From NCBI GenBank assembly GCA_012862575.1, contig BLSF01000090.1, positions 62,001 through 126,000 on the forward strand: a stretch of DNA of 64,000 nucleotides, in the 5' to 3' direction. Source of the stretch: Parietichytrium sp. I65-24A (Eukaryota > Sar > Bigyra > Thraustochytrida > Thraustochytriidae). The number at the start of each line of letters is the position of its first letter. The first letter of the stretch is position 1. The notes below the pieces were generated by a model that saw nothing but the letters and a program-made list of their open reading frames with translations, searched no databases and was not told the DNA's origin. This document shows, piece after piece, positions 32,449 to 53,185 of this stretch. Position numbers and translations under genes: made by a program.

Positions 32449-32506
32449 GTGAAAGTTGAAAGTTGAAAGGTGAAAGATTGAAAGATTGAAAGATTGAAAG
32501 GTTGAA
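32449..32506. repeat. GAAAG(A)TTG tandem array in the 5' leader
   Basis: Seven units of 8-9 bp (GAAAGTTG, then GAAAGATTG) end 14 bp before the ATG of the CPSF30-like gene. They probably lie in its 5' UTR. Confidence 0.8.
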
Positions 32507-32519
32507 ATCATCGGGAGAG

Positions 32520-35423
32520 ATGGTGCTGCATGCGGACTTCCTGCTTGATGGAGCGGATCACACGCGGCTGTTCGACTTTGAGCTGGAGGTGAGCCGGGGA
32601 CTGGACAAAGACGCGGAGCTTCAGAAATGGACTGGCAAGCAGAAAGAGCAACGACCCAAGACGATGGTGTGCAGGCACTGGGTGATGGACTTGTGCATGA
32701 AAATGGACGAATGCGAGTTCCTGCACGAGCTGGATCCGCGCAAAATGCCCGAGTGCAGATGGGGTGAGAAGTGCCAGGTGCCCGACTGCTTGTTCAAACA
32801 CACCAAAGAGGAAGACAGGGTGGAGTGCGCGTTTTACAAGCTAGGGTTTTGCAGAAAAGGACCCACGTGCAGGTTCAGGCACGTGCAGCGCCCGCCAGAA
32901 GAGTGCCCCGAAGAGATAAAGTGGGACGAAATTGACGATGCAAAGCAGCTCACCCTGACGGAGGTCACCACGATGGAGGAAGGGGTGGAGAAGAAGACAA
33001 TGGTGCAGCACAATGAAAATTACAAGGTCGCAATCTGTAAGCACTGGCAGAACGATGGCAGTTGCCACTTTGGGGAAAAATGCCACTTTGCGCACGGGCA
33101 GCACGAGCTTCGAATGCGCACCGGGGAGGACGAGAACGAAGCTGGCGCGGGGGGGCCACCGAGAACATCTCTGTTGGAGCTCATTCAAAACTTTCAGCAG
33201 GCTGCGGTTAACGCGCCCCGAAACCCAATCAGCGACCACGGCACAGACCTACAGACCCCTGATGAGGAGTCTGTGCCAGATCGCCCAGGTCACCCCGCTT
33301 ACTTTGTAGTTCGGGCTTCCTCCCCCAGTCAAGTAGCGGCATCACTTTTGCACAGATGCTGGTCCGTGCTTCCGTGTTTTATGAGTAAACTGAATGAAGC
33401 TTTTCATCGCGCGCCACGAGTATTCATCTTCTTCGCCTCTGAGGAGGACAGCTTGTTTATGGGCTGTGCAGTCATGACTGCGCCGGTTCAAATGGCGAGG
33501 GATGTACCTTTTGTTAACTTACCTCCTGCGGCCATGGGATTCTCGTTTCTTGCTCAGATCGAATGGCTCTACATCTGTGAGCTCCCGTTCCAAAAAACAG
33601 CGTTTCTGATGTCTTGGGAGGAAGAGGTGCTTCTGGATCTTCCAGTCTCCATGTCGTTCGAATGCTCCGCCCTTCATCCTACAGTCGGTCACGCCCTCAT
33701 GGTCATGATGTACCGAGAAAGTTTCATAACAGTGGACGTTAACCAACTACCCAGCAATGTCTCGCTCTCTGTGCATATGGAAGGCCCCGACCCCAATCTC
33801 TACACCCAGGTGGACGAGCACATCCAGGCAATGAAAGAGTACACCAGGGAGAACCCCGGCTACTTGCGCGAGCTCCGCGGCCGCGGGCCAGGGGAGCAGT
33901 CAGGGGGCGCTTTGCTCGGTCCGAACGGTGTTCCTGTCGGTCCGGGGAGTATCCAGGTGCCCGACCGGCCGGCGGTTCTTATGGGATGCACATCGCGCCA
34001 CTTTGTGCGAGAAATGCTTCACAGGCATCTTTTGGCCGGGCCAGAATCCAATAAATCTGACATGTCCGTGATCCAGCGTGGCACGTACATTATTCTCTTC
34101 GATCACGAAGACAACAAGATTCACGGCATCTTTGAAGCCCTCTCGCCCGCAGAAGAGCTTGTGGAGCCCAACGCGTTTCGGAACAACGATGCAGATATGG
34201 ACTCAATTAGTGAGTTACCTGTCCAGGTTAGGGTTCGAAGGGCGATGAACACCCCGCCCATCCATGCACGCCAGGTACCCATCAATATCCTGCAGACCGA
34301 TGGAGGAGAATCTGCTAGCTTTCAGCGCATCGCTGCCCCGCAAATGCAGTACATTGCCAATCTCTTCGCGCAATCCGCCGGCAACCGTAATCGCAACAAC
34401 AAACAACAGGGCGGAGGTGGTGGAGCGGGAGGAGGAAATGCCGGAGGAGGCGACCGCGGCCCATCCGATTATCCTCCGGGCATTAGTGTCCACGATCTAC
34501 CGTCCAAGGCCGACAATATTACAAGGACCGTGGTTATTAACATTCCATTTCGGGACCAATTCAGAGCTGCCCATCGTCTTATTGGCAAGGCCGGAGCAAG
34601 AATACAGCCCATCAAGGAAACTGGTGTGAGGTGCACGGTGAAGGGTCTTGGGGTCAGTTCGGACAGTGGCCAAAGAGAAATTCATGGTCCCATGCAGGTG
34701 ATCTTTTTTTCCAATGACGCCAACAGCATGGCGCGCGCAGAACAGCTTATCCTTCGGATGGCAGAAGATCTCGAGAGGAGATATGAAGAATACGAACAGG
34801 TCGGGGAAAGTATGCGGGCTGCGAGAGGGGGGCGGGGCGGTGGAAGGGGCGGATATCAGAACGGCCCCGGGCGCTACGGTGGCGAAGGACGTGACTTTAG
34901 AGATGATAACTTTGATGGTGCTTCCGGCCCTGGCGGGGATCGCGAGCCGGATTGGCGCCGAAATGGCCCCCCTGGAGGCAGGCGGGGCGATGATCAATCG
35001 GTCATGTCCTCGGAACGGAATTTTCGCAACTCGCGCGACGACAACCACTCCGTTGGATCAATGGACAGGGGCGGCCGCGGTGGTTATCGCCGCGGCCCTC
35101 CGCCTCCTTATGCTCGCGATGATATGCAATCTGTTGCTTCGTCCGATGTCGGCCATGGCCGCCGATATGACAATGGGCCACCTCGCGGAGGGCGACGCGG
35201 GTACAACAATAACAGAGATGATAACAGTGAGCACTGGAATGACAGTTTCGACAATCGAAGCGATGGTCGCTCTGATTTCCGCGGAGATCGCGGTGGCTAC
35301 CGCGGTGGCTATCGTGGCGGTGGTCGCGGCGGTCGAGGCGGGCGCGGCGGACGCGGGGGCCGTGGAGGGGGCGGGCATTTCCGTAACGATCGCTCGAGGT
35401 CCCCCCCGCGACAACGGTATTAA
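32520..35423 (+). CDS. CPSF30: CPSF30-like CCCH-YTH-DCD-KH-RGG protein
   Basis: A single frame of 967 residues, taken from the ATG at 32520 (MVLHADFLL). Residues 1-45 match the CPSF30 N-terminus ('FDFELEVSRGLDKD'). Three CPSF30-type CCCH fingers follow (about 50-121): VCRHW..C..CEFLH, MPECRWGEKC..CLFKH and CAFYKLGFC..CRFRH. A TTP-type CCCH lies at about 173-194. A YTH domain spans about 258-408 ('AYFVVRAS', 'KLNEAFHRAPRVFIFFA', 'EWLYICELPFQKT') and is closest to plant CPSF30-L. A DCD domain follows at about 485-617 ('VLMGCTSRHFVREMLHRHL', 'YIILFDHEDNKIHGIFEA', 'LPVQVRVR'). Then come a KH domain at about 666-757 with the GxxG loop IGKAG and a long RGG/RDD tail. By family it would act in mRNA cleavage and polyadenylation, bind AAUAAA-type signals through the fingers and perhaps read m6A through YTH. 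The addition of DCD and KH is unusual and rests on pattern recognition. Confidence 0.9.
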   Translation: MVLHADFLLDGADHTRLFDFELEVSRGLDKDAELQKWTGKQKEQRPKTMVCRHWVMDLCMKMDECEFLHELDPRKMPECRWGEKCQVPDCLFKHTKEEDRVECAFYKLGFCRKGPTCRFRHVQRPPEECPEEIKWDEIDDAKQLTLTEVTTMEEGVEKKTMVQHNENYKVAICKHWQNDGSCHFGEKCHFAHGQHELRMRTGEDENEAGAGGPPRTSLLELIQNFQQAAVNAPRNPISDHGTDLQTPDEESVPDRPGHPAYFVVRASSPSQVAASLLHRCWSVLPCFMSKLNEAFHRAPRVFIFFASEEDSLFMGCAVMTAPVQMARDVPFVNLPPAAMGFSFLAQIEWLYICELPFQKTAFLMSWEEEVLLDLPVSMSFECSALHPTVGHALMVMMYRESFITVDVNQLPSNVSLSVHMEGPDPNLYTQVDEHIQAMKEYTRENPGYLRELRGRGPGEQSGGALLGPNGVPVGPGSIQVPDRPAVLMGCTSRHFVREMLHRHLLAGPESNKSDMSVIQRGTYIILFDHEDNKIHGIFEALSPAEELVEPNAFRNNDADMDSISELPVQVRVRRAMNTPPIHARQVPINILQTDGGESASFQRIAAPQMQYIANLFAQSAGNRNRNNKQQGGGGGAGGGNAGGGDRGPSDYPPGISVHDLPSKADNITRTVVINIPFRDQFRAAHRLIGKAGARIQPIKETGVRCTVKGLGVSSDSGQREIHGPMQVIFFSNDANSMARAEQLILRMAEDLERRYEEYEQVGESMRAARGGRGGGRGGYQNGPGRYGGEGRDFRDDNFDGASGPGGDREPDWRRNGPPGGRRGDDQSVMSSERNFRNSRDDNHSVGSMDRGGRGGYRRGPPPPYARDDMQSVASSDVGHGRRYDNGPPRGGRRGYNNNRDDNSEHWNDSFDNRSDGRSDFRGDRGGYRGGYRGGGRGGRGGRGGRGGRGGGGHFRNDRSRSPPRQRY

Positions 35424-39812: not shown

Positions 39813-40759
39813 GTTTGGCTCGAGTTCAAGCGTGCAGTATCGTCCATTTCCTTCTGGACGTTTGAATTTTTTTCAAGCGCGCCCTCCTCAACCGAATAAC
39901 GCGGACGACGGGCTGAATCATATGGGAAACCCAAAGATCCAACAGCTGCATCGTTCGCGAACCACGATTGTACTTTAATTTCCACACAAGAGCCGTTCAT
40001 CACCCCTTTCACTGTCAGTCGACATCATTAGTGTCCATTTCGCATCTCCCTCTGTCAACAACCTTCCTCGTTTCAACTAATCAGATTCCAAACTGACAGC
40101 CAAACAAAACATCTCAACACACATCACGCATACGTACCCACGAAGCAGCCACAACGCGAAACGCTCAAAAGCAAAAAGCAAAAAGTAAAAAGTAAAAATT
40201 GAGAAAATTGTGTTTTGAAAAAGAGAAGAGGCTCACGTCAAACGTCTAAAGTTCACTACGGTACTCATCACTACCTTCTGGCGCCCAATCTCCGGAACGC
40301 ATTATCTTCCAGAGCGTCTATCGAGGGCGCCTACCACGTACTCTGTGCCTGGCCCTCCGCCTCGATCGAGGCCATTCAACCTTGTCAACCAAACACAACG
40401 ACGGCAATTGGTACAAAGGGTGAGCTGTACAGTACGGAAAGTGGCCGCTTAAAGTGTCCTCGCGCACGCCTCAAGAGTCGCCCATTCACCAGCTTTGTGC
40501 AGGTCTCGTGGCGGGCGGCACGGTGAGTTGACTTGGCCGGATTACTGAGGTTGGTGTTGCCTTGGAAAGAAAGAAAGTACTGTGGTGGTGTGGTGGGTCA
40601 AGGGTGTTTATCTTTCAAAGCACTGCACGTCTTGTATCGTCCATCTTGCCGTTCTTCACGTGTCACCGCTTGCCACTTGTCGCTGATTGATCATCGTTAC
40701 TGTTCATTTGTCGGTGGAAGGTGGAAGGTGGAAGGGAAAGGGGCAGCGGCGCACGGATC
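39813..40759. other. spacer between the EEP gene and the large TPR/zinc-finger gene
   Basis: No gene is seen. Contains a minus-strand TGACAGTGA motif (at about 40006), an AAAAGC/AAAAGT array (40168-40199) and three GGTGGAA units (40712-40735) just before the next start, probably in its 5' UTR. Confidence 0.6.
40168..40199. repeat. AAAAAGC/AAAAAGT short tandem repeat
   Basis: About five A-rich heptamers that shift from GC to GT at the variable position. Confidence 0.75.
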
Positions 40760-43700
40760 ATGACGAAAAAAGCGGACCGCATGAAGAAGAAGAAGAAGAA
40801 TGAGCCCGCCGCGACGACGCTCGCCACTGAGGATGTAATCAAGGCGCTGCACGTCTTCAAGAGCGCGTGGGATGCGCAACGGTTCGAAGACTGCGTTGAG
40901 TGCATTACCGAGCTTATCAATTCTGATCCTACCGCCGCAATGATGTACGTCAAAAGAGCCACCGCACTGCTCGAGCTCCGCAGGTTCTCTGATGCCATTG
41001 CGGATACTGTGGAGGCGACCAAGCTGCAGCCTGGGCTGGCGCGTGCGCACCTTTACCAGGGATTTTCATATGCTCAGATGGTTCGCTCGGGCCTTCAGGC
41101 TGACAAAGTATCCGAAGTCAAGCGGCTCGGAAGGGCGGCACTGGCGAAAGCTGTCGAGTTGGACTCTACGCTTGCCAGCGCCGAAGGCTTTCACGCACAC
41201 ATGGACATGCTCGCCGCTGACGGCTCGAGCTCGAAGGGAGCTCAACACGCGCATCGTCCAAGCTTGCTCGATTTGAGCAAACGAAATCAAGTCTCTCGCG
41301 TCGCACTCAAGCCCACCGGGAATGGGCTGCGGGGGTCGTCGCAGCTGGCTGGTCATGCCAGCATAGACGACGACCGCGTTGTGTGGTTTTTAAGCGATCT
41401 TCTGTCATTTGCGCTGATGATTGACTGTGAACATTTGAAATCTGATTTTGACCCTATTAAACTAGTTAGCGAAAGGAGATCCCTGGAGGAATGCCAGGAT
41501 GCCTTGTTATATCTCATTGACAACCTCGTCAATGGCTCAGCTCCAAGCGCAGCGTCGTGGAGAGGAGAGGCCCGCAAAGCAAAAAGCGTGCTGGAGGTCC
41601 AGCTTGTGCTTCGCCCCTTAAGGGCCGCGGTGCCCGGTCCCTCACTGGAGAGTGACTTTAACCGAGTGTTTGCCCGGGCCAAGAGGTGGTCTTATGCTCT
41701 GCTTGACAGCGGAGACACCGCTTTGTCGCTTATGCGAGGTGCAGTTAACCGGCTCTGTGTGAGACTAGTCGTGGACTGCTTACAACTCCGTGTGCAAAGA
41801 AGTGTCATATGGCTTGTAGAGTCTAGATTGGCGTTGTCCCGGTTGCCAGCTTCTGAGGAGCACAGAACATTGATCAGTGAACTGGACCATGTGTTATCAC
41901 CTCTATTTCGCCCTGAGGATCTGCAGGACTGCTCATCCTTTTCCCTGTTAGCTAATTACGCCTGTCTCCCGCAGGTTTCAAGTCAGAAATCGCAGGAAGA
42001 CCTGTACGGGTTATCGTTGACAGATGATTTGCAGACCAAACTTTGCGCACTGTTTCCCGACGCGAAAAGCATTCTGTGCACAAGTTCGTCTAGCCTGGTC
42101 ACCGGGAGACTGGGCTTTTCTTCGCATTTCGATCTGGAATCGGGCTTTCGTCCTTGGAATCTGGTTGAATTTCTACCTGGCAAAGCGCCATCGGATGGTT
42201 CATCAATTGAGCGTCAAAAGGGGCAAGGAGGCACAAACGTCACCTGTATAAGTGAAAGAGGCGTCAGGAAGGAAGACCAAGTTGCGCTGTGCAGCGAACT
42301 CAGCGAGGCGTCCATGCAGCTTTTGGAGCAGCTCAATCACGAGGAGAGGGAGTCGCTCACACGAATCACTTACGAGGAACTTCGCAGCGAACTCCGGAAG
42401 CTTGAGGGCCACAGCATTTGCGAAAAGGTCTTCCGGAACTTCTCGTCGACAGTCACCAAAGAAGACCTTAGCGCACACGTGCAAACCTTGCAGTACTTTT
42501 ACGAGAAGATGTGTGTGGCCTCCGGGGAGGGTCATCAGGCAGCGCCTGATTCACAGAGCGAAGAGGTCATTGGGCTTACACAAAATTCTGGTGAAGCTGC
42601 AGAGAGCAAGCGCGAGATGACGCAAAGGCGGCTTGTAAGTGATGCGAAACACTACACGGAGAAGTGGGAGGCCATCGGGTCTCGCTTCAATGCTCTGGCT
42701 AGCCAACTGGAGCTTCATGGAATAGATATTCAGCCAGAGGGAAAAGATCAACTCGATCGCTACTCCAGGGCTGCTCTGCTTAGCCCTCTTGTGAGCTTTA
42801 TTGATGAGTGGAGTGCAGGCTCCCCTTGTCTTGGCCGCTCTGAAGACGCAGTCAATCGGGAGACAATATACATGGTCCCAACCTGCCGATTCGATGCATC
42901 AGATCTCTTCAATTTTGGCTCTGCCAATCATGCCGCTCAGCTTCCCGAGAATGTTGATCAAGTTGGTATTCCACAGTCTCTTTTGCGTTCACGGGGAAGC
43001 TTTGTATCATACAGGTGCTCAAGATTTTGTCATGAGCTCTGCGGGAGGAACTCGGTTCCGATTGGCGCCGGATCTATCTGCTGTGAGTGTGGAAAGACCG
43101 GTGATCCTTGCACCTTCACCTCTCTCGCGAGTAATTGGTGGTTTCCATCGGTGCGGGTGGTAGAAGGGAAAAAGCAGATTCCCCAGAAAGCTCTGTCGAG
43201 TGAGTCAAGTGCTCGCCCAACCAAAGGGAGTCCTGAACTTCATATTCCAGAATTGCGGAACTTTGGAAGCGGTGCAGACGCCAGGCCAAAGAACGATTTT
43301 GGATCCGGAACCTCTAAGAGGAAGAAGAAGAGGAACGCTAAGGGGGCGCACTTGGACGGCTCGAGCGAGGAAAGAGTGCAGCGGGGTAGCGTGGCAAATC
43401 TCGACAGGAATATAGCGACCCGGCATGAATGCTCAGCCGAATGGGGAACATCTTGCGTCTCCTGTAACTGGTTCTTGTCGATGGACAACCGGTGCGTAGG
43501 ATGTTTTGCTCCTTTGCAAGCCGCCTCTGGAGTCATTTCCCCGCTGTCGAGCTTTCTGCGGAGGCTTGGTCGTCAAGCAGCAATGGCGCCAGTGGTTATT
43601 GAGGAGATATCCCGTCTTTCAGATCTGCGCCAGTTGGACGACATACTCCGATCCTATTCTGACAAACTCTTGAGCGTTTTCCACCATGTCATTAATGTAT

Positions 43701-46700
43701 TCAAGTATCGCAACGTCGTCCGACTCTTGGAAGCCGTCGAGCTGCTGTACAGTGCCATGCTTGAGCAAAAGGCCTTAGAATCAAATCAAGGGGCGCCGGC
43801 CACAGAGGAGAGCATTGCGCATCTCAGCTTTGAGGAAGAGTCAGCCGCCATGTCAACAGCGACGAAGGGAATGGCGTCCATTTTTGGCCAGCTGAAATCC
43901 ATGGAGAGCACAATTGCGAGCTACCATCGCAGGGAGTCTCTAGGCGGCCATGGCGCTGTAGCAGAGATTCTCGTCGACCAACCAGTTAACAGACTTTTGC
44001 TTGCACTAGAGAGCGTGTCATACGCAGAGGCGCGGTTTGAGGCACAGAAAGAGGCGGTCAACGATCGCGAAGTTTCCCACAGTCCGCTTTCCTCATCGCC
44101 GTCAGTGCAGTCCCCTCGATCGGCATTAGAGGGTGTCATGCAATTTGCTACAAGGGCTGCGGGAGAAGCGCGGCAGTCCAAGAGGGAGAGCGAGTCTTTG
44201 GCGAAATCGCGTCGCATGCTTGACACAAAGACGCGGTCGTTCATTTCGGATTACAAAAGATTGATACACCGCTTTTGCGAAGAGCTTTTAGTTGCAGTTG
44301 CGAGCGTGCCTGTGAAAGCAAATGTTGGAGAGGAGGATGAAGGCCCGATCGAAGAATGGAAGCTTCAAGTTGCGAGCCTTTTGGAGTCTGACGCTGCTTT
44401 GGCCGTGCATGACGTACGGGCGATACAGTGGAAACAGGATCAGTTCCGAGCCATAAGTCAGACTCAAGGGATAAGCGACATGTTACCGGAGGAGAAGAGG
44501 CGCATCGCTCGTGCGTCTAATGAGCTATTTGCACTATGGGACCCGCGGCGCTCTTCCGAAAGTCATTTAGTCGAACTGAAGTCTTTAGTTGAACAAGCTG
44601 TCCATGTGCTCGGAGCGTTGAGCAAGCTCAGTGCAACTACGCCGGCAAGTTCGGGTGCGTCAGTCGCAACTATGAGAGGTCCTAAGTCTCCCCAGATGGA
44701 GCGGTTAGAGTCTATCGAGATGGATCTGGAGAAACTGGTGAGCGATGTATTTTATGTTGTTCGCAGTGATTTGCGCCTTTTTGGCCATCGGGACTCCCCG
44801 GAAGTGAATGTCCTGGATCAGATTCAGTCAGTAAAAAGTATATGCAGCAAGTTGCTCTCTTCGAGCGAGAGTGACTCACTTGAAGGAATCGACGAGACGC
44901 CGCGCGCGATTCAGATTGCGCGATTGATCCACCTCCAATCGCAGCTCTTTTTCTCGTTGATTGCAAGAGTTACTACGAAGAGACTACAGGGCTTGATCGC
45001 AGCACATGAAGTCCGGGCTCTTCAGGCGTCCCTTCTGCTTGAAGAGGAAGCAGCAATAGTGCGCAAGCCGTCAAAGAAATCCACCAAAGCCAAGGCCAAA
45101 GAAGAAGCCAAGAGTCGAGAGGTCGAAGCAATCGCGCCACCTAAGAACGCTGGAAAACAGCAGAGCGCCTCCGGTGAAAAGTCTTATGAGACAGAGCAAT
45201 CTGAAGCGCGCGAACCTGTGAAAGTCTCCAGCATCGACTTGCTACCTGCTGCCCCTGTCGAACAGTCAGGGGCTCCGATCGTAGAAGCGACTAGCGAGCT
45301 TTCCGTGGAGTCTCCTCCCCAAAATACAACAGATGATGGGGATTGGATTGTGGTGCAGAAAAAGTCAAAGGTGAAGCCGGAAGGAAAACCTGGAGGCAAA
45401 ACAGCTGAGCGTGAAGATCGTTCGCAGGGGCAGAGGCCTGAGAGCGAGAAAAAGAAGCCTGCAAACTCTGTAAGCGGTAAGAAGAAGCAGGTTGAAAAGG
45501 TGGTAGTGGATGAGTTGGGGAAAATGCCTGCACAAAAGCTTAGCCACAGGAAGGGAAGTAGCAGCGTGCTAAAGGAGCCGGAGGATCCTCCACTAAAGGG
45601 CAAGTCAAAGGCCAAAAACGTCCAGCTCGAGCAAAGTAAGGGGGCCTCGGATGGAGGAAAAAAAGTTGTCGAAGTTAAAAGTGACGTTCAAGCCACACAG
45701 AAGCAGACAAGAGGGAGGAGGGGTAAGAAAGGATCCAAAACGCCATTGGCCAATAATCTCTCCGCAACAGATGAAGGGTTAGTTGAAGAGTCGCTCGGGC
45801 AACAAATCTCCAGTCCGGAATGGGAGGGCATGAAAGATGACGCGCAGAATGAAATCATCGTCGCGGACAAAGATCCAGAAACGGCTCTTGCAAGTTTGGA
45901 AGTATCTACTGTTGACGAGACTATTGCGGATAACCCTGTTGACGGACGCGCAAGCCGAGAAGCAGAGGCTGAAGCGCGCGCAGACATGGAGAGAGAGGCT
46001 ACGGTTATAAAGAGCGAAACCGGAGAGCATGCCAAGGGTATTCCGGCGGAGGAAGAAACGAGTTCGGATGTTGGTGAGGTCTGTGACAATCAACCAAACG
46101 ATGTCCAGGAAAACGATGCCACATTAGGTCCGCGGGATGTTGCCGATACAGTACCACAGGGGGCTTCCAGTGCTCCTGTTGACCCACCAACAAACTACGG
46201 GATCCAGAGCAGCCAAGAAGAGCCCTTACCATCCAACCTAGAGGAAGGAGAATCAGGTTTAGAAGAGGTGCAGGCAGGTGAGGCTGCGGAATCTCCGCAA
46301 TTCAAAGACGCGGCTGCAAATTACGAAGAGGGCGGAATTTCGGTGTATCCTCCTCCTCCTCCTCTTCTTCTTCACGACCAGATGCATCAGCCAATGGGCG
46401 GGCCGATGCCGATGCCAATGCCATACCCCGTCCCACACCATCCCGGAATGCATGTCCACCATAACGCGATGTTTCAACCTCCACAAATGATGCCCCATGC
46501 CCCGATGCCGATGCCGCCACCACCGGAGCCCCGGCCCATGCTCCAGCAACAACGTGTCTGTCGATTTTTTCTGGAAAATTCTTGCAGATACGGCCTGAGA
46601 TGCCGCGACCGACACATTTCTGCGGTTCAATTACACGATGAAATGATGATGTGGATGCATTCATCACAGCCAAAACCGCAGGCGCCTTCCGTCCAGTACC

Positions 46701-46927
46701 ATGTCATGGTTCCACCAAATTTTGGCCCGGGATGGCACCCCGGGATGCCGCCTCCACCACAGCATGGCGGTCCGCCCCTGTTTACTGGCCCTGGCATGCA
46801 CCAAATGCCGCCGCCCCCGTATCAAATGCCCATGGGTGTTGGCCACGAGGATCCAATGTCAGCTACAAATGCCAGCGACAATCTCGCGAACGAGAGTGAA
46901 AAGGCTCCAGATCAAGCGCACGACTGA
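40760..46927 (+). CDS. 2055-residue TPR and zinc-finger orphan protein
   Basis: An uninterrupted frame of 6.2 kb, starting at the ATG at 40760 (MTKKADRMKKKKKN). The earlier in-frame GTG is not needed. A Lys-rich start leads into TPR-like helices (about 20-140; 'YVKRATALLELRRFSDAIADTVEATKLQPG'). A very long helical region follows, broken by two cysteine clusters: one at about 752-790 (CSRFC..CHELC..CCEC) and one at about 890-917 (C-x7-CVSC...CVGC), both zinc-ribbon-like. Residues about 1435-1840 are low-complexity Lys/Glu/Ser, with a short DDGDWIVVQKKSK motif. Residues about 1870-1930 are Met/Pro/His-rich. A standard C-x7-C-x5-C-x3-H finger sits at about 1933-1955 (CRFFLENSCRYGLRCRDRH). TPR plus a CCCH finger suggests an RNA-linked scaffold, but I know no family with this order. 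Confidence 0.85.
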   Translation: MTKKADRMKKKKKNEPAATTLATEDVIKALHVFKSAWDAQRFEDCVECITELINSDPTAAMMYVKRATALLELRRFSDAIADTVEATKLQPGLARAHLYQGFSYAQMVRSGLQADKVSEVKRLGRAALAKAVELDSTLASAEGFHAHMDMLAADGSSSKGAQHAHRPSLLDLSKRNQVSRVALKPTGNGLRGSSQLAGHASIDDDRVVWFLSDLLSFALMIDCEHLKSDFDPIKLVSERRSLEECQDALLYLIDNLVNGSAPSAASWRGEARKAKSVLEVQLVLRPLRAAVPGPSLESDFNRVFARAKRWSYALLDSGDTALSLMRGAVNRLCVRLVVDCLQLRVQRSVIWLVESRLALSRLPASEEHRTLISELDHVLSPLFRPEDLQDCSSFSLLANYACLPQVSSQKSQEDLYGLSLTDDLQTKLCALFPDAKSILCTSSSSLVTGRLGFSSHFDLESGFRPWNLVEFLPGKAPSDGSSIERQKGQGGTNVTCISERGVRKEDQVALCSELSEASMQLLEQLNHEERESLTRITYEELRSELRKLEGHSICEKVFRNFSSTVTKEDLSAHVQTLQYFYEKMCVASGEGHQAAPDSQSEEVIGLTQNSGEAAESKREMTQRRLVSDAKHYTEKWEAIGSRFNALASQLELHGIDIQPEGKDQLDRYSRAALLSPLVSFIDEWSAGSPCLGRSEDAVNRETIYMVPTCRFDASDLFNFGSANHAAQLPENVDQVGIPQSLLRSRGSFVSYRCSRFCHELCGRNSVPIGAGSICCECGKTGDPCTFTSLASNWWFPSVRVVEGKKQIPQKALSSESSARPTKGSPELHIPELRNFGSGADARPKNDFGSGTSKRKKKRNAKGAHLDGSSEERVQRGSVANLDRNIATRHECSAEWGTSCVSCNWFLSMDNRCVGCFAPLQAASGVISPLSSFLRRLGRQAAMAPVVIEEISRLSDLRQLDDILRSYSDKLLSVFHHVINVFKYRNVVRLLEAVELLYSAMLEQKALESNQGAPATEESIAHLSFEEESAAMSTATKGMASIFGQLKSMESTIASYHRRESLGGHGAVAEILVDQPVNRLLLALESVSYAEARFEAQKEAVNDREVSHSPLSSSPSVQSPRSALEGVMQFATRAAGEARQSKRESESLAKSRRMLDTKTRSFISDYKRLIHRFCEELLVAVASVPVKANVGEEDEGPIEEWKLQVASLLESDAALAVHDVRAIQWKQDQFRAISQTQGISDMLPEEKRRIARASNELFALWDPRRSSESHLVELKSLVEQAVHVLGALSKLSATTPASSGASVATMRGPKSPQMERLESIEMDLEKLVSDVFYVVRSDLRLFGHRDSPEVNVLDQIQSVKSICSKLLSSSESDSLEGIDETPRAIQIARLIHLQSQLFFSLIARVTTKRLQGLIAAHEVRALQASLLLEEEAAIVRKPSKKSTKAKAKEEAKSREVEAIAPPKNAGKQQSASGEKSYETEQSEAREPVKVSSIDLLPAAPVEQSGAPIVEATSELSVESPPQNTTDDGDWIVVQKKSKVKPEGKPGGKTAEREDRSQGQRPESEKKKPANSVSGKKKQVEKVVVDELGKMPAQKLSHRKGSSSVLKEPEDPPLKGKSKAKNVQLEQSKGASDGGKKVVEVKSDVQATQKQTRGRRGKKGSKTPLANNLSATDEGLVEESLGQQISSPEWEGMKDDAQNEIIVADKDPETALASLEVSTVDETIADNPVDGRASREAEAEARADMEREATVIKSETGEHAKGIPAEEETSSDVGEVCDNQPNDVQENDATLGPRDVADTVPQGASSAPVDPPTNYGIQSSQEEPLPSNLEEGESGLEEVQAGEAAESPQFKDAAANYEEGGISVYPPPPPLLLHDQMHQPMGGPMPMPMPYPVPHHPGMHVHHNAMFQPPQMMPHAPMPMPPPPEPRPMLQQQRVCRFFLENSCRYGLRCRDRHISAVQLHDEMMMWMHSSQPKPQAPSVQYHVMVPPNFGPGWHPGMPPPPQHGGPPLFTGPGMHQMPPPPYQMPMGVGHEDPMSATNASDNLANESEKAPDQAHD

Positions 46928-51019: not shown

Positions 51020-53185
51020 TTAACGCTCGTTCTCTTCGGGTGGCCATGACTGCGCTCGAATCTGCGACTCGTTCCCTTCAGCATCAACGACTACTTTTGT
51101 GCCGTCTGGAAACATGGTCTCCTCTGTTTTGTCGGTGTAAATGATGCGCACGGCTCCATCAGGAAAGAAGATCTCCACAGTGCCATCGGCCATTGTTCGC
51201 TCTACTTGGCCGTTTGAAAATTCCAAGACAACCATGCCGTCGTCGTATTTCGTTTGCGTGGTCTCCGATCTGGCAAAATAGTACACTTCGATGCCTTCCG
51301 AAGGGAGATCTTTGCGGACATCCCCATTCTCAAAGCTGATGGTAGTCTCACCGTTTTCCGCCACCTCCTTGACCTTCCCGCTGGGGTAGGTAGTCACCCT
51401 TGTACCGTCTGCGCGGACAATTGTTTCCTTTCGCGGCTTGGAGTTCTTGCCATCACTAACCCGTTTCTTCTTCTTAGTCTCTTTTGGCGTTCTACCCGGG
51501 CCAGATTCTTCCGGGGGCTTGAGGTTACTTTGCAGCACCAGGGAGTAGGCATTCTTCTGAGAAACTATTTCGCTCTCAAGGGTTCCCAGTTTAGTGGTCA
51601 AACCCTCAATCAGAAGCTCCAGCTCTTGGCACTTTGTTTTTGTCGCCTCAAGATTGCTCTGAGCCATTCTTTCGCGTTCCCAGCAGTCAAGTCGTCTTTC
51701 TTCGGCAAACCGTAGGGCTTCCTCGAGTCTCTTCACCTCTCCTTCTAAGGTTCCAATCCGTTCTTTCTTGCCTCGCATCGACTCCTTGTGTCTCGTGACT
51801 CGCTCTTGCTCTGCCAGCCGCAATTGAGCGATCGTCGCTTGAAGGGACTCCACTTGTACCTTGTCTTTCTTCTCCATCTTGGCAGTCGCTCGCATCAGAT
51901 CAATATGCTGCCTTTGTTTCTCAAGACCAGCCCTTTCCTTTTGAATTGCTGCCCGCTCCCTGTCGACTTGAGCACGAAGCTCTCTCATTTCAGCCGACTC
52001 GCCCTTTTCTCTCTCCCGTTTTTCCCTCTCCAGCTCTCTTTTCTCTTGCTCCAAGCGTTTCCTGTCGCCCTCTAAGCGGTCCAGTGACGCCTCAAGTTTG
52101 CTGTTCGCCTCTTGAAACTTGCTGAGCTCCGCAAGAAGTTTTTGAGTCAACTCGTCTTCCGGCTGGTCCTTCCTTTTTCTTTGTACATAGACTTTGTCGT
52201 CATTCTGCGGCTGCCTCGCGCGTGGCGAATTTGGCGCGTGTTTGGGGTCCAGCGTGTAGAACATTTTTTGGACCAGGCTTGAAACTGGCGCAGGGCTCTC
52301 AGGCACACGGCCGCCGCGATCTCCATCCAGCCGCTGTCGTCTTGGCGGGGAAAACGCCGGGTTGTCGTCGTCTGAGAACAGATCCTGATCTTGATCTTCG
52401 CCAAGTTCATCCTGGCCATGCTCATTTTCATTCTCATCATCATCATCATCATCGTCATCGTCGTCAGATCTACGATAATCCTCGTCCGAGTAGGTAAATG
52501 GAAATGGACGAGGCTCCGGCCCACCGCTCTGACCGGAATACCGGCTATTTCCAAAGCTCGCGTCGTTGGCGACGGCGTTATATAGCTCGAGAAAGTCCTC
52601 CGAGTCTTCATCCGGACTCGCTTTCGCCGGCTGCCATTTTGATGAAACTATTCCCGGCGCGTCACTGGTTGTCTGGGCAAGCGTCTTTGGCGGGCTTTGA
52701 GGCATGTCGAGCGCCACCTGTTTCTTGCGTGACAGCTCATGCCTCTTCGGCTGAGCAAGTTTCACCGCGTCCACCCGATTCCAAACCCTGGACCCCTTTT
52801 TCAAGAATGCGCGCTTCCGGGCGCCCCGCGATTCGTGTCCAGCCTCTGTTGTCTTTTTCGCAGCTCCGAATTCAACTTCCGGTGCAGACGTATTCTTAGC
52901 AGCTCGCGCATTCCTGGGCGGCGAGAACTCGGGCGGTGGTGGCGGTGGTGGGGATTCGGAGCGAAGTTCGGCTGACGCATACTGTCGAGGTCTCGGGCTG
53001 GATTGTGCTGGGTTGGAGTCGTGGTCTGCTTTGATTGTAGATTCCTGCGGTGAACCAGCTTGTGACGAGATTCGCCCGTGGCTCCAACCGCTCAGAGCGC
53101 TCGAGTCCAGATCCGCGCCGTATAGTCGTACAAAAAGGCTCTCACCATTGAGTGCATCTGTCTCGTCCTCTTCGTTCCACTCCAT
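51020..53185 (-). CDS. SAS-4/CPAP (CENPJ)-like protein with TCP10 C-terminal domain
   Basis: Single frame on the minus strand, 721 residues from the ATG at 53185 (MEWNEEDETDALNGE). The first 330 residues are disordered, with Pro-rich (PPPPPPEFSPP) and acidic stretches; a run of ten Asp codons lies near residue 240. A strong coiled coil spans about 335-545. The last 150 residues form the T-complex protein 10 C-terminal (G-box) fold, a ladder of short Gly-containing beta repeats: 'VRADGTRVTTYPSGKVKEV', 'MVVLEFSNGQVERTMADGT', 'IFFPDGAVRIIYTDKTEE', 'MFPDGTKVVVDAEGN'. In CPAP/SAS-4 this domain binds the STIL/Ana2 partner and is needed for centriole assembly. The usual N-terminal tubulin-binding segment is not obvious. 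The gene implies an organism with centrioles and hence a flagellated stage. Confidence 0.88.
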   Translation of the reverse strand: MEWNEEDETDALNGESLFVRLYGADLDSSALSGWSHGRISSQAGSPQESTIKADHDSNPAQSSPRPRQYASAELRSESPPPPPPPEFSPPRNARAAKNTSAPEVEFGAAKKTTEAGHESRGARKRAFLKKGSRVWNRVDAVKLAQPKRHELSRKKQVALDMPQSPPKTLAQTTSDAPGIVSSKWQPAKASPDEDSEDFLELYNAVANDASFGNSRYSGQSGGPEPRPFPFTYSDEDYRRSDDDDDDDDDDENENEHGQDELGEDQDQDLFSDDDNPAFSPPRRQRLDGDRGGRVPESPAPVSSLVQKMFYTLDPKHAPNSPRARQPQNDDKVYVQRKRKDQPEDELTQKLLAELSKFQEANSKLEASLDRLEGDRKRLEQEKRELEREKREREKGESAEMRELRAQVDRERAAIQKERAGLEKQRQHIDLMRATAKMEKKDKVQVESLQATIAQLRLAEQERVTRHKESMRGKKERIGTLEGEVKRLEEALRFAEERRLDCWERERMAQSNLEATKTKCQELELLIEGLTTKLGTLESEIVSQKNAYSLVLQSNLKPPEESGPGRTPKETKKKKRVSDGKNSKPRKETIVRADGTRVTTYPSGKVKEVAENGETTISFENGDVRKDLPSEGIEVYYFARSETTQTKYDDGMVVLEFSNGQVERTMADGTVEIFFPDGAVRIIYTDKTEETMFPDGTKVVVDAEGNESQIRAQSWPPEENER

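Follow-up and report, generated by a model that had tools for sequence, protein, structure and literature searches.

Human CPSF30 binds AAUAAA through its zinc fingers ZF2-ZF3 and Fip1 through ZF4-ZF5 (PMC5760199). The proteins of plants and Apicomplexa carry three fingers, the third of which has been likened to human ZF5, followed by a YTH domain (PMC8313237), and a further arrangement, in which Znf, YTH, DCD and KH follow one another, has been described for the CPSF30 of many heterokonts in section 13 of PMC7641849, where S. diclina is shown for this type according to the legend of Fig. 11a. In the same source, DCD was placed by profile comparison in the PUA-like superfamily together with EVE, and was predicted to bind modified RNA, possibly m5C.

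The present analysis concerns a locus in a window of 64,000 nucleotides, the whole stretch of Parietichytrium sp. I65-24A DNA that was analysed, together with the assembly (42.5 Mb, 172 contigs), in which profile and protein searches were read exon by exon. Fourteen control genomes, prokaryote as far as named, gave no match (0/14) for YTH, DCD, MT-A70, Fip1 or VIRMA, and thus served as no positive control for these families. We take PMC7641849 to be Bell et al. 2020.

A CPSF30-type protein with the heterokont domain order

As summarized in Table 1, the locus holds one uninterrupted open frame of 967 aa, in which four CCCH fingers are followed by YTH, DCD, a probable KH domain and an RGG-rich tail. 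Stops in the same frame lie upstream, and the in-frame TTG at 32502 is an alternative start. The coordinates, residue ranges and motifs given in the initial annotation were all correct, and its proposal that CPSF30, YTH and DCD are joined in one frame was borne out by the Pfam scan and the match to human CPSF4.

Table 1. Features of the CPSF30-type locus (window positions) and the second DCD protein of the assembly
Feature (residues)	Position	Strand	Basis or remark
CPSF30-type protein with YTH, DCD and probable KH	32520..35423	+	ORF; Pfam scan
CCCH finger 1 (51-69)	32670..32726	+	Aligns to human CPSF30 ZF2
CCCH finger 2 (79-94)	32754..32801	+	Aligns to human CPSF30 ZF3; 3 residues shorter
CCCH finger 3 (103-121)	32826..32882	+	Human CPSF30 ZF4 in main alignment; ZF5 more weakly, 11.6 bits
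CCCH finger 4 (173-192)	33036..33095	+	Tristetraprolin/BRF2-like
YTH domain (261-397)	33300..33710	+	Pfam; W281 kept, second cage Trp absent
DCD domain (488-593)	33981..34298	+	Pfam; resembles the genome's other DCD
Probable type I KH (680-745)	34557..34754	+	Pfam below curated cut-off; GxxG = GKAG
Low-complexity RGG-rich tail	34824..35420	+	14 RGG in protein, first at residue 769
Predicted DCD-poly(A) polymerase	Contig C18, L005:3663-7490 (outside window)	-	1275-aa single frame

The best match of the protein among solved structures was human CPSF4 (E = 2.4e-19), its best stretch (residues 46-124) covering the ZF2-ZF3-ZF4 region, and several CCCH families scored above their Pfam cut-offs. Fingers homologous to ZF2-ZF3 and to ZF4/ZF5, the features by which a CPSF30 was to be recognized, were present. 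A human CPSF30 fragment matched the assembly at this locus only (E = 4.5e-19, 51% identity), and no second CPSF30 was found in this exon-by-exon search of the 42.5 Mb, in which five candidates were scored. A paralogue search with the whole protein returned four places besides itself, three through finger 4 and one through the low-complexity tail, none of them a second CPSF30 by these matches. A Fip1-family gene was present on contig C36 (E = 5.4e-15).

The initial annotation had called the fingers CPSF30-type as a group, which held for fingers 1-3 and failed for finger 4, a tristetraprolin-type finger that it had not singled out. By its sequence, finger 4 is tristetraprolin-like and not CPSF30-like, matching BRF2 (1rgo) with E = 2.4e-15 and tristetraprolin (1m9o) with E = 4.9e-13, both summed over two stretches (best single stretches 3.7e-9 and 8.5e-7, respectively), compared with E = 2.4e-4 for CPSF4 (6fuw). 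Like the first BRF2 finger, it has a YK lead-in and ends in a FAHG-x-x-ELR tail, whereas the tristetraprolin/BRF2 proteins have a tandem pair and only a single such finger occurs here.

The order Znf-YTH-DCD-KH was thus found in one frame, the KH domain being sub-threshold. The initial annotation knew of no CPSF30 with DCD and KH, and this claim of novelty fails because the arrangement had already been reported for many heterokonts in section 13 of PMC7641849. The protein is a new example of the published heterokont-type CPSF30, an arrangement known for water moulds and their relatives. No relatives of the whole protein were found in the viral contig collection. As a lineage marker, a Labyrinthulomycete 18S primer sequence had no exact match (0).

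Elsewhere in the window, a 2068-aa open frame (40721-46927) showed a sub-threshold CCCH match alone, near its C-terminus. A 721-aa frame on the reverse strand (51020-53185) carries T-complex protein 10 C-terminus repeats (PF07202), presumably as in CPAP/SAS-4-type centriole proteins.

AATAAA was counted around 52 ORFs of at least 250 aa, with unverified gene ends, from the window and 20 regions of 10 kb (L020-L039), leaving out ORFs that did not have 250 flanking bases on each side as well as overlapping shorter ORFs. It occurred within 250 bases downstream of the stops in 5/52 cases, against 5/52 on the opposite strand and 1/52 upstream. This small set, whose gene ends are unverified, gave no sign of a dominant AAUAAA after the stops. 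Pyrimidine-rich words ranked high downstream relative to the opposite strand (e.g., ATTCTT, 16 vs 4), without correction for how many words were tried. The organism may use a poly(A) signal other than AAUAAA.

YTH domain and m6A writers

Of the three domains that the initial annotation had proposed to check by HMM search, YTH and DCD exceeded their Pfam cut-offs. YTH (PF04146) was detected in the whole protein with E = 1.3e-19 (70.7 bits, cut-off 22.1), and its closest solved relative was the CPSF30 YTH chain 5zuu (E = 3.4e-14), which we take to be Arabidopsis CPSF30. With the cage positions that we assume for this domain, W281 matches the first cage tryptophan. Residues 282-348 are devoid of Trp, the next being W349, and hence a second cage tryptophan is absent, whereas the aligned segment of 5zuu has one; depending on the alignment, F331 or N333 occupies the opposite position. 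The combination of two cage tryptophans and a third hydrophobic or aromatic residue, by which m6A-reading YTH domains were to be recognized, was not found. For YTHDC1, the region 428-439 has been named for the cage (PMC8313237). The genome yielded a single further YTH (contig C124, 31.2 bits), which is shorter in the cage segment and has no Trp between its two flanking ones, so that both YTH domains found (2/2) are without the second cage Trp. The protein carrying this second YTH (L002:526-2586, reverse strand) is 686 aa long and RGG-rich.

MT-A70 gave one match in the assembly, at contig C26:339506-342901 (L012; one candidate scored), in a gene interrupted between two parts of the domain, probably by an intron. 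The domain stretch matched chains labelled MT-a70 family protein (7f4r and others), presumably Tetrahymena MTA1, with E = 5.8e-54, compared with 4.3e-24 for METTL3. The METTL3 and METTL14 queries both returned this locus only (one candidate scored each). The four WTAP matches, none of which passed the cut-off (best 21.5 bits vs 35), look like chance because the control also matched below the cut-off in 3 of the 14 prokaryote genomes; VIRMA had no match in the assembly, a weak negative in that the control was silent too. By these searches, the canonical m6A writers are probably missing from this assembly. The MTA1-like enzyme could methylate RNA, and m6A itself is compatible with the data. In oomycetes, according to the part of PMC11449341 cited here, no homologue of METTL3 or METTL14 was found, yet m6A was still reported, via METTL4- and METTL16-like enzymes.

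The initial annotation had proposed that m6A may be one of three controls on 3'-end choice here, next to a DCD interaction and a second RNA contact through KH. Since the second cage Trp is absent and the sole MT-A70 locus is MTA1-like, confident m6A reading is unsupported, and plant-like m6A reading by this protein appears doubtful. A reader resembling those of plants and Toxoplasma, in which YTH would recognize m6A near poly(A) sites and guide cleavage with F331 as the cage stand-in, DCD and KH only strengthening RNA binding, is possible but unlikely. F331, which lies opposite the cage-segment Trp of the best solved match, may be an aromatic substitute that could keep weak m6A binding, and the overall YTH score is strong; moreover, Toxoplasma CPSF4-YTH has been crystallised with m6A and m6A RNA (PMC8313237), and the oomycete m6A was reported where METTL3 and METTL14 were missing. 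Weighing against such a reader are the cage segment devoid of Trp, the lone MTA1-like MT-A70 locus and the same loss of the second cage Trp in the genome's other YTH.

Two DCD domains in poly(A)-related proteins

The DCD domain (Dev_Cell_Death, PF10539) was detected with E = 1.3e-12 in the whole protein (48 bits, cut-off 27.8) and with E = 4.6e-14 (52.7 bits) when the segment was scanned alone. Besides this locus, the assembly contained one DCD match, on contig C18, and the two domains resemble each other with E = 5e-8 in a single comparison, a score reached by none of 2000 shuffles. A false DCD match was rejected on the strength of the two Pfam scans and this similarity. Comparison with PDB sequences yielded nothing credible (best E = 0.93), and no measured DCD ligand was found in the parts of the literature consulted. 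An alignment of the two DCDs gave 28 pattern matches in the viral contigs and the DCD alignment gave 53 in bacterial and archaeal genome contigs, with none confirmed in either.

The C18 protein has its DCD at residues 6-100 (35.9 bits, cut-off 27.8), together with MTPAP-like central (32.8 bits, cut-off 27), NTP_transf_2 (29.3 bits, cut-off 21) and a sub-threshold PAP_assoc. The best of its three solved relatives was poly(A) RNA polymerase protein 2 (3nyb, E = 3.3e-10), which we take to be yeast Trf4, the other two being GLD-2, and it carries GSFATG, SDLDLL and PVDISL starting at positions 369, 381 and 643, presumably the catalytic motifs. From these matches, the protein is classed as a TRF4/GLD-2-type non-canonical poly(A) polymerase with a fused DCD. 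No fusion of DCD to a TRF4-type polymerase was found in the literature searched, which lay mostly outside subscription papers. With CPSF30 and a TRF4-type polymerase as the hosts, both DCDs found sit in poly(A)-related proteins.

The DCD had also been read as a stress-linked interaction. That it is a stress or cell-death protein-interaction module linking 3'-end choice to stress is highly unlikely: the domain was indeed originally identified in stress-induced proteins of plants (PMC7641849; PMC4943007), but its PUA/EVE-like classification and predicted binding of modified RNA weaken this reading (PMC7641849), and the genome's other DCD belongs to a poly(A) polymerase-like protein.

KH domain, RGG tail and gene model

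In the whole protein, KH-I_KHDC4-BBP scored 22.9 bits (cut-off 30) and KH_1 16.5 (cut-off 21.5), and scanning the segment alone raised these scores to 26.7 and 20.2, still under the curated cut-offs. The GxxG loop, which the initial annotation had pointed out, is present as GKAG within residues 687-695. On account of this loop and the sub-threshold scores for two KH models, the KH domain that it had claimed outright is better called probable than proven. PDB sequences again gave nothing credible (best E = 1.4). The RGG tail was confirmed as annotated.

A chance open frame was rejected, 967 codons without a stop having a probability of about 2e-17 under a single-base composition model. A gene-model artefact, whether two genes or an intron that removes a domain, is scarcely credible in view of this length and of the identical domain order already known in heterokonts, even though seven GT[AG]AG sites lie inside the frame and introns probably exist in this genome, because the MT-A70 gene is interrupted within its domain.

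Discussion

Considered as a whole, the product of 32520-35423 is probably the CPSF30 of this organism, of the heterokont Znf-YTH-DCD-KH type. We infer its binding activities and its role at the 3' end as follows. Fingers 1-3 would carry out the conserved CPSF30 work, in which fingers 1 and 2, the equivalents of human ZF2-ZF3, would contact the polyadenylation signal of the pre-mRNA, and the ZF4/ZF5-like finger 3, perhaps together with finger 4, would hold Fip1. Finger 4, YTH, DCD, KH and the RGG tail may form a multi-contact RNA clamp on the same transcript. Within this clamp, a modified base would more likely be read by the DCD, for which m5C has been proposed as ligand (PMC7641849), than by YTH, given the altered cage of the latter and the failure of the searches to find dedicated writers of m6A in mRNA.

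A bolder version, which we regard as unlikely, holds that the m6A side of CPSF30 has degenerated in this lineage, with the writers lost and both YTH cages eroded, and that marks are now read for the poly(A) machinery by DCD. If true, 3'-end formation and later tailing could both be guided by a single RNA mark (perhaps m5C), the CPSF30 DCD acting at cleavage-site selection and the other DCD at the TRF4-type polymerase. The protein raises the questions of whether CPSF30 retains YTH once the m6A writers are gone and whether DCD is a genuine reader of modified RNA, for the latter of which the presence of another DCD-bearing, poly(A)-related protein in this genome offers an independent handle.

What is new here comprises the missing second cage Trp, an MTA1-like MT-A70 as the only one, the tristetraprolin-like finger 4 and the DCD-TRF4-type fusion. 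Compared with human CPSF30/CPSF4, the protein shares the aligned ZF2-ZF4 region, whereas nothing before finger 1 aligns to ZF1 and the human protein is described as having five fingers and a zinc knuckle but no YTH (PMC8313237). With Arabidopsis CPSF30-L and Toxoplasma CPSF4 it has in common three CPSF30-type fingers followed by YTH, while DCD and KH are not mentioned for these two in the cited part of PMC8313237. The closest counterpart, likened by description, is the heterokont CPSF30 of PMC7641849, which differs in that three CCCH motifs are named there against four here, and which agrees with the present protein in CPSF30 orthology and in having the same domain order within a single protein.
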